A DNA stretch of 34,907 bases, from NCBI GenBank assembly GCA_030765535.1, contig JAVCCH010000093.1, positions 1 to 34,907 on the forward strand, given 5' to 3'. Under the pieces are notes generated by a model that searched no databases, was not told the DNA's origin, and saw nothing but the letters and a program-made list of their open reading frames with translations. Positions within the stretch are counted from its first letter, which is position 1; each line of letters starts with the position of its first letter. This DNA is from Candidatus Tenebribacter davisii (GTDB lineage: Bacteria; Cloacimonadota; Cloacimonadia; Cloacimonadales; TCS61). A program made the position numbers and the translations under genes. Positions 18,506 to 23,255 of the stretch are shown here, piece by piece.

Positions 18506-18547
18506 ATGATAAAAAACATAAAAATCTTGGAGTGTAATAAATTATGA
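18506..18547 (+). CDS. Possible 13-codon leader peptide overlapping the symporter start
   Basis: A short frame (MIKNIKILECNKL) starts with ATG at 18506, preceded by AAGGA about eight bases upstream, and its TGA (18545-18547) overlaps the symporter ATG at 18544 in an ATGA arrangement. The symporter start itself has its GGAG 12 bases away, longer than usual, so coupling through this leader would make sense. There is no homology evidence for so short a peptide. Confidence 0.35.
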   Translation: MIKNIKILECNKL

Positions 18548-19977
18548 TCGCACGCTATATCGCAGTATTTCTGTATGCAGCAATGGTAATTTTCATTGGA
18601 GTTAAAGGCTCACGTAAAACTAAATCATTCCATGACTTTGCCCTAGGTGGAGGAAAGATCGGTCCCTGGATGACTGCATTCAGTTATGGAGCTGCCTATT
18701 TTTCAGCAGTTTTGTTCATTGGTTTTGCCGGTAAGATCGGCTGGGCATTCGGGCTTTCCGGACTTTGGATCGCATTGGGAAATACACTTGTCGGCACACT
18801 TGGTGTGTGGCTGCTTCTTGGAAACAAAGTGAAGCAGCAGGCAATTGCTTATGATGTTCACACTATGCCGGAATTGCTGGAAGCACGTTTTAACTGTCCA
18901 TTTTTGAAAATATTCACTTCTGCAGCGATCTTTATTTTCTTTATTCCCTACACAGCAGCTGTTTTCATGGGACTCAGTTATTTATTTGAATTCACCTTCA
19001 ATATGCCATATACTTATGTGCTTCTCTTTATGGGAATTTTCACAGGAATTTACCTGATTATGGGCGGTTACAAATCCATGGCTATGATAGACGTGATCTT
19101 TGGAATGATAATGATAGTTGGGGTTATAATTCTTCTGGTCAGCACGATCCATCGTGGTGGTGGAATCCCAAATATTATAACAGTATTACGTGATATAAAC
19201 CCAAAACTGGCTGCTCCCGTCGGACCTCCCGGGTTCATCCCCCTGGCATCATTGGTAATTCTTACCAGTATAGCTCCTTTTGCCATGCCGCATCTTCTGC
19301 AAAAATTTTATGCGGTTAAAGATGAAAAATCAGTGAAAATAGGTACCTATGCTTCAACTGTTTTTGCCTTACTTGTGGTTGGAATTGCTTATTTCACTGG
19401 AGCTCTAACCAGAGTATTTTTAAATCCAACAACAAGTCCTGCTGCTTTCACTGCAAACGGCAAACCTATCTTCGACGCTTTAATGCCGGAAATGCTGGTA
19501 ACAGTTATTCCCTCGGCTCTCACGGTAATTATTTTATTGCTAATCCTTGCCGCTTCCATGTCCACACTAGCTTCATTGGTTCTTATTTCCAGTACTTCTA
19601 TTACTAAAGATATTTATAAAGGGTTCATCAATCGTGATGCATCAGACCAAAAACTTACTTCTACGGTAAGAATAGGAAGCGCATTCTTCATTATGCTTTC
19701 CATGCTCTTAGCTTTCCTGAAACCAGCAATCATAGTAACTATTCTCTCTGTTTCCTGGGGTGCAATTGCATCTGTTTTCCTGGGACCTTTCGTCTGGGGG
19801 ATATTCAATAAAAAAGTAAATCAATTGGGAGCAATTGCCGGTTCAGTTGGTGGTCTTGCTATTTGCCTGGTTCTCTTCCTGGTGTGGGGATCAAAAATGG
19901 TACCACAGGCTGCCAGTGTGGGGATGATCGCTTCATTGGTTTTGGTTCCGGTTTTTAGTTTGTTTGGGAAGAAGTAG
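18544..19977 (+). CDS. Sodium:solute symporter (SSS family)
   Basis: Inner-membrane secondary transporter of 477 residues with about 13 hydrophobic helices spread across the whole protein, the SSS (PutP/SglT-like) architecture. Recognisable elements are KSFHDFALGGGKIGPWMTAFSYGAAYFSA near the N-terminus, a Na+-site-type stretch, TYVLLFMGIFTGIYLIMGGYKSM in the middle (the family GGxxAV region), and LAASMSTLASLVLISSTSITKDIYKGF, a segment strongly conserved in SSS proteins. The substrate cannot be assigned: proline, pantothenate, sugars and acetate are all possible in the family. The stop is directly followed by a hairpin repeat that may terminate transcription. Confidence 0.87.
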   Translation: MIARYIAVFLYAAMVIFIGVKGSRKTKSFHDFALGGGKIGPWMTAFSYGAAYFSAVLFIGFAGKIGWAFGLSGLWIALGNTLVGTLGVWLLLGNKVKQQAIAYDVHTMPELLEARFNCPFLKIFTSAAIFIFFIPYTAAVFMGLSYLFEFTFNMPYTYVLLFMGIFTGIYLIMGGYKSMAMIDVIFGMIMIVGVIILLVSTIHRGGGIPNIITVLRDINPKLAAPVGPPGFIPLASLVILTSIAPFAMPHLLQKFYAVKDEKSVKIGTYASTVFALLVVGIAYFTGALTRVFLNPTTSPAAFTANGKPIFDALMPEMLVTVIPSALTVIILLLILAASMSTLASLVLISSTSITKDIYKGFINRDASDQKLTSTVRIGSAFFIMLSMLLAFLKPAIIVTILSVSWGAIASVFLGPFVWGIFNKKVNQLGAIAGSVGGLAICLVLFLVWGSKMVPQAASVGMIASLVLVPVFSLFGKK

Positions 19978-20086
19978 GGTCAATTACCCGAATTGACCGA
20001 TAAGCAAATTCAAGTAATTCAAAATCTGAGGGTCAATTCCCCGAATTGACAGTGTACTAGGACAATTGAAGGTAATTGTCCCTACA
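19978..20086. repeat. Compound palindromic repeat, locus 1 (three hairpins)
   Basis: Three hairpins in a row. 19978-19998: GGTCAATT, loop ACCCG, AATTGACC. 20032-20050: GTCAATT, loop CCCCG, AATTGAC. 20060-20081: GGACAATT, loop GAAGGT, AATTGTCC, followed by CTACA. The same arrangement recurs at 22184-22258. It begins at the base after the symporter stop codon and ends about 50 bases before the next ATG. Confidence 0.85.
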
Positions 20087-20135
20087 AAAAAAACATTAAA
20101 ATTCAAACCTAAATTTTTTCAATACTGGAGGAAAA

Positions 20136-21320
20136 ATGAAAAAGTTGATATTATTAGCAATTTTAATCTTATTGTTAACAAATCTCTTCGGAATCAGAGA
20201 GTTTGCCTGCATGTTTACCCTGATTAATCCATCTACGACAGATGTAGCATTTGGATTAAATTCCGGTACAACCAATATCTGGAATACAAGTCCTTTGAGT
20301 GTATGGAGCAATCCTGCCAAACTTGGTTATCATAATGGTTTAGCCTTTGGCTATTCCAATGATCCCTATTTTGAAAAAATATTCCCTGATATCTATCACC
20401 GTTCATCGTATGTAAGCTATGGCTGGAACGGAATTGGAGTTCTTCTTCCAGCTCCAAGTGCAAAAAAGCATTGGGGAACATTTATGGACTATGGAGAGCA
20501 GACCATGATGGATGAATATGGAAATGTCATTGGAACTTTTGAATCTTATGACGCATGTTCAAAATTCGCTATTGGTCTAAATACTATAGAGTTTGTATCC
20601 AACTTTATTAATAATGAGAGGTTTCGTTCTCTTCAATGTTACGGAGATCTTTCAATTGGATATAATTATGATAATATTATTAGTGATTTAGCACCTGAAG
20701 GTACCGGTGGTGGAGAAATTGGTATTAAGGGATTAGGAGAATCGCATTCATCAGGATATGGTTTTATTGGTCGTATCAGTCCTTTTAATAAAATCAATGC
20801 GATAGGTAAATTTTGTCGGTTAGATCTTACTGCTGGAATTTATTATCTGAATAATGAAAGAACAAAGATTACTTATATAAATGAATCACAAGCCGATCCC
20901 CTACCTTATGGTATAAGAAGTGCTTTTTCCGGTAAGTTTTCTATTGATTTAGGTATAATCCCAGAAATTGATAATACTGGGTTAAGAGATTTTATCAACA
21001 ACCTATTTTCAATATATTATAGCCAAGACAACGCACAATACGGTGAAAAAGATGAATTAAATCCAGGTATTTGGGGAGAAGGGATTGAATTTACTTTCTT
21101 TGATATTCTATCAATTAGAAAAGGACAGCATGTCGATAGAGCAGGAGAAATGGTTGGAGATACTGACGGTTTTGGATTAAATTTCAATTATAAGGATATC
21201 TTTCAGTTCCAATATAATAAAACAAAATTCCCTGGTGGTGAATTACAAGATAAACAAGAAAAAACTGATTACATGGTTAGAATTGATTTCATAAAAACAT
21301 ATAATTTATTCAAGAATTAA
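20136..21320 (+). CDS. Exported PorV/UPF0164-like outer-membrane protein, unknown function
   Basis: Protein of 394 residues with a Sec signal peptide (MKKLILLAILILLLTNLFG). After it comes NPSTTDVAFGLNSG then VWSNPAKLGYHNGLAFGYS, which resembles the start of PorV/PorQ/UPF0164-type barrels, where an NPA-L-G motif marks the first strands. The rest alternates hydrophobic and polar residues with many Gly and Tyr, including SIGYNYDN, GFIGRISPF, LDLTAGIYYL and a terminal DYMVRIDFIKTYNLF. GGAGG lies five to nine bases before the ATG. In FCB-group bacteria such proteins can be part of the type IX secretion or surface system, fitting the sorting-domain protein at 24364-26682, but the specific role is not shown. 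The family call is tentative. Confidence 0.6.
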   Translation: MKKLILLAILILLLTNLFGIREFACMFTLINPSTTDVAFGLNSGTTNIWNTSPLSVWSNPAKLGYHNGLAFGYSNDPYFEKIFPDIYHRSSYVSYGWNGIGVLLPAPSAKKHWGTFMDYGEQTMMDEYGNVIGTFESYDACSKFAIGLNTIEFVSNFINNERFRSLQCYGDLSIGYNYDNIISDLAPEGTGGGEIGIKGLGESHSSGYGFIGRISPFNKINAIGKFCRLDLTAGIYYLNNERTKITYINESQADPLPYGIRSAFSGKFSIDLGIIPEIDNTGLRDFINNLFSIYYSQDNAQYGEKDELNPGIWGEGIEFTFFDILSIRKGQHVDRAGEMVGDTDGFGLNFNYKDIFQFQYNKTKFPGGELQDKQEKTDYMVRIDFIKTYNLFKN

Positions 21321-21340
21321 TTGGGTAAGATTAGCTTAAA

Positions 21341-22168
21341 ATGATATCATTATTTCTCAGTATCATCATGTCAGTTGCAATTGCCAACTTACTGCCTTAT
21401 TTCAAAAAAGATAAAAAGATAAAAATTCTACATGTTTTCCTGGGAAATTATTTTTTAGCTTCAATATTCAGTTTTATTGATAAAGGTAGTCCACTGGCTG
21501 AAGCTGGAAATTTTGAGATTTTCACAGGTTCTCTAACAGGAATTCTCTTCTTTGCAACATTCCTTATTTATCAGCATAATATTTCCAAAAATGGTGTTTC
21601 TTTAAGTGTGGGTGCAATGAGGTTTTCTGTAGTAATTCCCATCATCATGGCTTTATTAATATTTGGTGAACCAGTTTTTCTACTTAATGTAATTGGAATT
21701 ATTTTGGTGTTACTGGCTTTCACATTCTTAATGGATACAAAATCTTTTCACAGCATTTTCTGGTTGGGATTGCTTTTCCTGGGAACCGGTATTGCTGATT
21801 CCATCATGAAATTATATGAACAGTACGGTTTGGAATCTACTCGTCCTTTTATGATCTACATTTTCGGTTCTGCCATGATCTTCAATTTACTGGTTGTGCT
21901 GATCAAAAAAACTCCCTTTCATTTGAAATCGTTCTGTTTTGGAATGATCTTGGGAATTCCTAACAGATTAACTACCAAGTATTTTCTTGATGCTTTGCAG
22001 GAAATACCTGCTTCTGTAGTCTATCCCATGTTTGCAGCATCAGTGGTCGTTTTAGGAATTCTTTCAGATGTCTTGATCTGGAAAAAGAGATTTAATGCTA
22101 AGCAGTGGATAGCTTTGACAATTATGGTTGTAGGAATAGCTTTATTATATATAAGAATTGGAATCTAA
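21341..22168 (+). CDS. EamA/DMT-family membrane transporter
   Basis: Integral membrane protein of 275 residues with around nine to ten hydrophobic helices and short loops, in two halves like EamA/drug-metabolite transporters. The second half ends with VVYPMFAASVVVLGILSDVLIWKKRFNAKQWIALTIMVVGIALLYI, the typical DMT C-terminal pattern of a short loop with basic residues between the last two helices. The first half has VIPIIMALLIFGEPVFLLNVIGIILVLLAF, the equivalent repeat. No strong ribosome site is visible; the gene starts 20 bases after the upstream exported-protein gene and may be coupled to it. The substrate is unknown. Confidence 0.75.
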   Translation: MISLFLSIIMSVAIANLLPYFKKDKKIKILHVFLGNYFLASIFSFIDKGSPLAEAGNFEIFTGSLTGILFFATFLIYQHNISKNGVSLSVGAMRFSVVIPIIMALLIFGEPVFLLNVIGIILVLLAFTFLMDTKSFHSIFWLGLLFLGTGIADSIMKLYEQYGLESTRPFMIYIFGSAMIFNLLVVLIKKTPFHLKSFCFGMILGIPNRLTTKYFLDALQEIPASVVYPMFAASVVVLGILSDVLIWKKRFNAKQWIALTIMVVGIALLYIRIGI

Positions 22169-22183
22169 TTCAATTTCTTTGCA

Positions 22184-22258
22184 GGATTAATTCCCCGAAT
22201 TGACCGCTTAAAATAATTTAAAATTCGTAACGGACGATTAATGATAATCGTCCCTACA
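22184..22258. repeat. Compound palindromic repeat, locus 2
   Basis: Second copy of the repeat at 19978-20086. A decayed first hairpin (22184-22205, GGATTAATT, CCCCG, AATTGACC) and an intact second one (22232-22253, GGACGATT, loop AATGAT, AATCGTCC, then CTACAA). Relative to locus 1 the second stem has a compensated A-T to G-C change. It lies between two convergent genes and may act as a terminator for both. Confidence 0.85.
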
Positions 22259-23255
22259 ATTTTAATAGTTCCTTATTTTCCAGCACAAATTCCACTTCTA
22301 CAATAGCCAGAGGAAGATCATGTTCGATGAACTGTAATTTAGCATAATCCTTTTCAGTGGTCAGAACGAAATCAATTTTTTCCAGTTTCACATCAGCAGA
22401 GATCTGTTTGATAACTCCTTTTTTCTTGAAGTCATAATGATCAGGAAAACGGAAATGCTTATCAAAGTGTAACCCTGCCTCATGAATTGTGTTCTCAAAA
22501 GATTGTGGTAAACCGATTCCGGAAAGAAGTGCCAATTTTCCTTCTGGATTAATTTCTTTCCCATTAACATCTGAAAATTGTTTGATTTTGTATCCACCTT
22601 TTAAAATTGGCTTGTTGAATTTTTGGATTTGTACTGGAATTTCACCTTTTCCATTGAATACTATATAATCAGCATATTTCAGAGCTGAAAGAGATTCCCG
22701 TAAGATACCAGCAGGTAAGACAAAACCATTGCCAATTCCGCCAATAGAGTTAAAAACCACAAAATCAAAATCATGCTGAACTTTGAGATGCTGGAATGAA
22801 TCATCCAGAATTATATATTCCAGATCGGGATATTTTCCTTCCAATATTTGAATTGATCTTTTACGATTTCTGCCAGTTATAACCGGAATTCCAGACAACT
22901 TTGTTGCCAATAAATACGTTTCATCACCTGCATCTCCGGCAAAATCGAATACTCCCTTTTCATCAGAGATTAGCTTGTTCTCATTTTCGAATTTACCTTT
23001 ATAACCGCGATGTGAAACTGCAACTTTTTTTCCCTGTTTTTGTAGATATTTAGCCAGAAATATAGTTGCCGGAGTTTTACCGCTGCCGCCACTGACGATA
23101 TTTCCTACATTGATTATCCTACAGCTTGATCGATACCCTTTAGAATGAAATTTTCTTCGCAAAATCAAAATACAGGAATAAATTGCTGACATCGGTAAGA
23201 GTAAAAAGGAGAGTAACGATTTTTCATATAAATTTTTTTCGATCATTTTTTGCAT
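22254..23255 (-). CDS. lpxK: Tetraacyldisaccharide 4'-kinase LpxK
   Basis: Inner-membrane-associated kinase that phosphorylates the 4' position of the lipid A precursor, so the organism makes lipid A. The protein of 333 residues has an N-terminal hydrophobic segment (about residues 13-32), then NVGNIVSGGSGKTPATIFLAKYL with the P-loop near residues 55-62, the family motif DDSFQHLKVQHDFDFVV, RKRSIQILEG, and a late LTTEKDYAKL element typical of LpxK. The start is preceded by GGTG six bases upstream, overlapping the stop of the small exported gene. Other lpx genes are not adjacent. The stop lies on the edge of repeat locus 2. Confidence 0.93.
   Translation of the reverse strand: MQKMIEKNLYEKSLLSFLLLPMSAIYSCILILRRKFHSKGYRSSCRIINVGNIVSGGSGKTPATIFLAKYLQKQGKKVAVSHRGYKGKFENENKLISDEKGVFDFAGDAGDETYLLATKLSGIPVITGRNRKRSIQILEGKYPDLEYIILDDSFQHLKVQHDFDFVVFNSIGGIGNGFVLPAGILRESLSALKYADYIVFNGKGEIPVQIQKFNKPILKGGYKIKQFSDVNGKEINPEGKLALLSGIGLPQSFENTIHEAGLHFDKHFRFPDHYDFKKKGVIKQISADVKLEKIDFVLTTEKDYAKLQFIEHDLPLAIVEVEFVLENKELLKL

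Follow-up and report, generated by a model that had tools for sequence, protein, structure and literature searches.

Two hairpin sites in the window

The window analysed here is a stretch of 34,907 nucleotides from Candidatus Tenebribacter davisii, corresponding to contig C168 of a 3.0 Mb genome assembly (G000; 218 contigs, 95% complete). Hairpin repeats were found at two sites, W1 (19974-20085) and W2 (22181-22259), both at gene 3' ends. The genes and repeats are listed below; RAYT denotes a REP-associated tyrosine transposase (TnpA-REP; HuH-Y1 type).

18544-19977, plus strand: sodium:solute symporter (SSF) gene (Pfam PF00474), with its stop codon within REP 1
19974-19998, plus strand: REP 1 of W1, GTAG tag and GGTCAATTA-CCC-GAATTGACC, from the sequence and the genome pattern search (1 mismatch to consensus)
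19999-20026, plus strand: 28-nt spacer of a recurrent 53-bp REP unit, GATAAGCAA...TTCAAAATC, like spacers elsewhere in the genus
20027-20051, plus strand: REP 2 of W1, tag decayed to TGAG, GGTCAATTC-CCC-GAATTGACA, from the pattern search
20060-20085, minus strand: inverted REP (iREP) of W1, GTAG-GGACAATTACCTTCAATTGTCC, which holds a compensated A-T pair
22181-22259, no strand assigned: W2 as a whole, a single REPIN where the relatives G005 and G006 have REPIN-RAYT-REPIN
22181-22205, plus strand: decayed REP of W2, GCAG tag and a stem mismatch, with left flank and stem identical to the left REPIN of G006
22232-22257, minus strand: iREP of W2, GTAG-GGACGATTATCATTAATCGTCC, whose TAG (22256-22254) is the LpxK gene stop codon
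22254-23255, minus strand: gene for LpxK, tetraacyldisaccharide-1-P 4'-kinase (Pfam PF02606), with its stop codon within the W2 iREP

A 394-aa ORF at 20136-21320 has no Pfam match. Homologous ORFs occupy this site in G001, G005 and G007 but not in G002, G004 and G006.

An earlier note on this DNA had described two copies of a compound hairpin, and all the sequences it gave are present. At W1 these are a hairpin at 20031-20050 and GGACAATT...AATTGTCC at 20060-20081, followed by CTACA; at W2 they are a hairpin at 22185-22205 and GGACGATT...AATCGTCC at 22232-22253, again followed by CTACA. W1, however, starts at 19974 and holds three hairpins, REP 1, REP 2 and the iREP. REP 1 reads in full GTAG-GGTCAATTACCCGAATTGACC, with the complete hairpin GTAGGGTCAATTACCCGAATTGACC, and REP 2 reads TGAG-GGTCAATTCCCCGAATTGACA, with 8 nt separating it from the iREP. 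The first hairpin of W2 is present in sequence but decayed (GATTAATTC/GAATTGACC), with one A-C mismatch and one T-G, and is unformed in the predicted single-stranded DNA fold. The decayed REP reads in full GCAG-GATTAATTCCCCGAATTGACC and lies 26 nt from the iREP, the W2 REPIN spanning 22181-22257. The CTAC(A) at the foot of the repeats had been seen, but not that every intact palindrome carries a GTAG tetranucleotide there.

The 53-bp unit of REP and spacer at W1 recurs, with similar spacer ends, in G003, G004, G005, G006 and G009. At other loci of the genus a REP-to-REP spacing of 52-54 bp is found with the same type of spacer.

A genus-specific family of inverted GTAG hairpins

At each site two GTAG-tagged palindromes stand in inverted orientation, GTAG-GGTCAATTC-nnn-GAATTGACC on one strand and GTAG-GGACGATTA-nnnn-TAATCGTCC on the other, which is the arrangement of a REPIN or BIME. 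The family consensus sequences, GTAGGGTCAATTCNNNGAATTGACC and GTAGGGACGATTANNNNTAATCGTCC, fit the definition of a GTAG REP, an imperfect 20-40 nt palindrome with GT[AG]G at its foot. The paired hairpins are real and far beyond chance. A 21-mer REP core matched the window three times with at most three mismatches, against 0.00 matches expected in shuffles, and the z-scores for single-stranded DNA folding were -4.6 at locus 1 and -4.5 at locus 2, with none of 200 shuffles as good.

The family extends beyond the two sites first noticed, with further copies on C33, C40, C59 and C63 of the same genome, dispersed and extragenic as are the two on C168. A pattern search counted seven REPs and four iREPs in 3.0 Mb. 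With up to two mismatches allowed, REPs turned up in every one of the ten genus genomes, with 1 to 18 matches apiece (a few being a single palindrome counted once per strand), and in none of 89 further genomes from the family and order; iREPs likewise occur in 10/10 genus genomes. A reversed-pattern control gave no match, and a looser pattern run on 125 genomes of the phylum gave one stray match outside the genus. All copy counts come from pattern and BLAST searches. These overlook copies that have decayed strongly, and they may pick up a single palindrome once per strand.

Inverted doublets are frequent, 28 of the 70 collected REP copies having an iREP within 120 nt downstream. The linkers fall into classes of 8-15, 23-32 and 61-65 nt, plus two longer ones, and the 61-65 class holds a second REP, as W1 does. 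Both loci are best explained as non-autonomous elements of the REP/REPIN (BIME) kind that belong to a single family confined to the genus. In several genus genomes (L106, L107, L111, L120, L213) a second inverted-repeat element, AAGTTGAACTTGC...GATAAGTTCAACTTATCAACAAG, was observed immediately 3' of single REPs.

The compensated stem pair

One stem position is A20064-T20077 at W1 and G22236-C22249 at W2, and the earlier note had read this preserved pairing as a sign of selection on folding. The corresponding explanation holds that the repeats are a structured RNA or a binding site under selection for the stem. Besides this one exchange of A-T for G-C, it can draw on the REP and iREP consensus stems, which differ at three of nine pairs and remain paired at all three. 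Those three differences, between just two consensus sequences, also fit two related hairpins that may be recognised by one protein.

Wider sampling gave little sign of such selection. Among 27 distinct iREPs, 93.8% of the pair cells are standard and a single cell is changed on both sides, namely the one first noticed, a result reached by 355 of 500 shuffles. Among 47 distinct REPs three cells are changed on both sides, which 58 of 500 shuffles reach. The compensated change is therefore one event without excess over shuffles and by itself shows no selection for folding, and covariation was rejected as proof of a folding requirement. The copies were collected by near-consensus patterns, a procedure biased against seeing double changes, so the result is an absence of support and no disproof. 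The inner core of the compensated W1 stem, CAATT/AATTG, is moreover that of the adjacent REP, and copying between neighbouring repeats may suffice to explain the change in one step. Selection on an RNA or binding-site stem is judged most improbable as the origin of the pattern. As a practical caution, when two copies of a repeat are compared, a compensated pair in one of them should be given little weight as a sign of RNA function.

The transposase of the family in related genomes

The suggestion that a REP-like family had been moved by a Y1 transposase fared better. Y1 hits are numerous across the genus; among the RAYT-like ORFs read out there, only two, on G005:C195 and G006:C19, have a REP and an iREP of this family on both sides. 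Both genes are situated 3' of lpxK, at the position of W2, between two REPINs. The two proteins share 73% identity and score 104.7 (G005) and 99.2 (G006) against the NCBIfam model NF047646 (REP_Tyr_transpos; cut-off 80). The RAYT matches the IS200 model below its cut-off (27.6 vs 55), and no IS copy with these repeat ends was seen.

The best PDB match of the G005 RAYT is E. coli TnpA-REP, 4er8 (E 1.9e-9). The HuH motif and Y115, N119, W94, Q95, E100, H101 and R104 are identical in the alignment, the 4er8 residue numbers from R104 to Y115 having been counted along it. Roles have been assigned to the HuH motif, Tyr115 and Asn119, and GTAG-related roles to Trp94, Gln95, Glu100, His101 and Arg104 (PMC6006769, PMC8266576).

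The gene is found in relatives but not in the window's own genome, where a search with the G005 and G006 proteins gave no match at 1e-8. RAYTs of this type are also absent from most sampled congeners, though the assemblies concerned are incomplete MAGs. In G009 a similar reading frame begins beside a REPIN 3' of lpxK, and the contig breaks off after seven of its codons.

The one Y1-transposase hit in G000 lies on C126. It was rejected as the mobiliser of these REPs because it scores 63.5 on NF047646, below the cut-off of 80, and its flanks carry an unrelated repeat, AACTTGTCTCATAACACC...GGTGTATAAGACAAGTT. This different repeat, of 55 bp (AACTTGTCTCATAACACC..CGGTGTATAAGACAAGTT), occupies positions 1053-1107 and 1828-1882 of locus L009 (G000:C126). 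The closest relative of the C126 protein, at 93% identity, is found in Candidatus Tenebribacter mawsonii; the next best matches are from Cloacimonadota too, and on this basis the organism was placed in Candidatus Cloacimonadota.

Taken together, more than two copies in the genome, occurrence in all genus genomes and a RAYT between the elements at the orthologous W2 position of two relatives support a REP-like family linked to a Y1 transposase. The repeats are very probably REPINs spread by a RAYT of the genus acting on single-stranded DNA, as in other REPtrons; the RAYT has since probably been lost here. Points against this reading are the low copy number, the absence of the RAYT from G000 and most sampled congeners, and the uncertain direction of change at W2.

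Stop codons and transcription termination

The earlier observation that the elements adjoin stop codons was correct but understated the relation. In G000 the TAG of REP 1 (19975-19977) is itself the stop codon of the SSF gene, and the TAG of the iREP tag is the lpxK stop codon in G000, G001, G005, G006 and G009. In G005 the SSF frame enters the REP and stops at a TGA inside the REP stem.

These positions bear on whether the repeats are instead bidirectional intrinsic terminators or stabilisers of RNA 3' ends, selected at gene ends and not mobile elements; bidirectional transcription stops had been proposed in the earlier note. In its favour are the position of both sites at gene 3' ends, where they provide stop codons, the placement of W2 between convergent genes, and the terminators found beside other copies (L003, L115). 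Against this, no T-run follows the hairpins in the sense of the genes, and a terminator scan found no more than chance would give (one terminator-like site vs 1.4 expected), its single hit being antisense, into the SSF gene. Orthologous sites vary in the presence or absence of the repeats, while the same GTAG-tagged sequence recurs at unrelated sites and with a flanking RAYT. The repeats have no Rfam match either; a scan of the window with Rfam 15 returned only a tRNA above the gathering threshold. Selection as terminators or stabilisers is thus very improbable as the source of the repeats, and a secondary RNA role after insertion may exist.

Loss or gain of the transposase at W2

At the W2 position, G005 and G006 have REPIN-RAYT-REPIN, G009 has a REPIN and an apparent RAYT start, G000 and G001 have a single REPIN, and G002, G004 and G007 have no REPIN. 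At the W1 position, G000 has the trimer and G005 a 59-nt REPIN, whereas G001, G002, G004 and G006 have no copy of the family and G007 has a different hairpin cassette. This compound cassette of G007:C38 (L175, about 130-265 and 1600-1760) has one copy at the W1 position and another at the W2 position, on either side of a homologue of the 394-aa ORF, and the SSF frame reads through the cassette. A second GTAG cassette family in G007 was considered and rejected, the probed part occurring only twice, both times at this locus.

W2 holds a hybrid REPIN. On the left, its flank and first palindrome equal the left REPIN of G006 with zero mismatches over about 39 nt. From the start of the linker through the second palindrome to the flank on the right, it follows instead the REPINs that lie to the right of the RAYT in G006 and G005. 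Deletion or replacement of a RAYT between two REPINs would leave such a structure. A tract at about 18.7-22.2 kb has 92-98% DNA identity between G000 and G006 (G006:C19), within surroundings of roughly 75-84%, and ends at the W2 REPIN. Alleles have therefore undergone recent homologous exchange between species here, and it may instead be G006 that acquired the RAYT segment. The LpxK and SSF trees are largely unresolved and do not polarise gain versus loss.

The opposite direction, in which the single W2 REPIN is ancestral and G005, G006 and G009 gained the RAYT and a second REPIN, draws on the single REPINs without RAYT in G000 and G001 and on the diverged segment of G006 inside the near-identical tract it has in common with G000. 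Against it stand the RAYTs of at least two clearly diverged species (73% identity), which share one position, and the hybrid nature of W2 itself. Reported REPtrons also seem not to travel as whole units (PMC6006769), and in E. coli the loss of a REPtron through deletion has been reported (PMC3733652). Such a gain is considered unlikely, and the RAYT was probably lost from the window's lineage rather than acquired later elsewhere. Its loss at W2 would have come about either when the stretch between the two flanking REPINs was deleted or when an allele lacking the RAYT took over.

A broader reading, offered tentatively and with some doubt, is that the lpxK 3' end is a long-lived docking site where RAYT and repeats come and go. 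REPINs would do more than land near gene ends, the TAG within the GTAG tag serving again and again as a stop codon, and loss of the RAYT by recombination between its two flanking REPINs would have left the hybrid scar in G000.

Proposed mechanism

Homology and repeat anatomy suggest how the family may have spread. In single-stranded DNA each palindrome would fold into a hairpin with GTAG at its foot. The cognate RAYT would recognise GTAG together with the hairpin, nick nearby and pass the strand on, and this transfer would spread the REPIN doublet to gene 3' ends. With the RAYT between two REPINs 3' of lpxK lost from the window's genome, one hybrid REPIN (W2) would be left there, and the handful of partly decayed copies in G000 would be what remains of the family.

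Comparison with known systems

REP repeats with a GTAG tag and REPtrons (PMC3733652, 2013), and RAYTs (PMC2817692, 2010), are a known kind of bacterial repeat system. The present family shares several of their features: palindromes of 20-26 nt with GTAG at one end, grouping into inverted doublets or larger clusters, a position beside gene 3' ends, a RAYT with its cognate REPs on either side and, probably, loss of the RAYT by deletion in some strains. It differs in its AT-rich stems, in having two stem types per doublet, and in its phylum, Cloacimonadota not being among the groups for which the 2013 survey listed GTAG repeats (Proteobacteria, Cyanobacteria, Chloroflexi and PVC; PMC3733652). It also comprises about ten units per genome, whereas REPs usually exceed 100 copies (PMC2817692). 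The low number lowers the likeness but does not exclude membership among the GTAG REPs, because more than 100 copies is a usual and not an exclusive feature (PMC2817692).

As in the REPINs described in 2011 (PMC3116915), two inverted REPs and a variable linker make up the repeated unit, and singlets resemble decay products; here three stem pairs, all compensated, distinguish one half from the other, and there are several classes of linker length. In comparison with E. coli TnpA-REP (4er8) and BIMEs (PMC8266576, PMC6006769), the G005 RAYT keeps the HuH-Y1 catalytic and GTAG-contact residues, and the REPIN-RAYT-REPIN layout is the same. The REP stems are without the conserved mismatch bulge of E. 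coli and look more like the palindrome of the S. maltophilia REPtron, which is short and perfect. MITEs of the IS200/IS605 type involve the same transposase superfamily (Y1), but the RAYT stays below the IS200 cut-off and the repeats do not match the ends of any IS copy seen.

Among the loci read out across the phylum, closely matching GT[AG]G-tagged hairpins were found in both flanks of 10 of 43 RAYT-like ORFs versus 0 of 191 control positions, and GTAG REP/RAYT systems therefore recur in Cloacimonadota. The flanking hairpin sequences differ between genera. Other Cloacimonadota RAYTs, each with GT[AG]G-tagged hairpins of its own, are at L142, L188, L229, L230, L236, L237, L243 and L255, and G008 and G031, of a different genus, have nearly the same REP.

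A literature search with a few chosen terms, not exhaustive, found no earlier mention joining Cloacimonadota with GTAG REP/RAYT systems, and the case of this phylum is apparently undescribed. The present family extends these systems to Candidatus Cloacimonadota. It also provides one intergenic site that is seen with the transposase, with a single REPIN and empty, a natural comparison for the loss of a REPtron and the persistence of its repeats.
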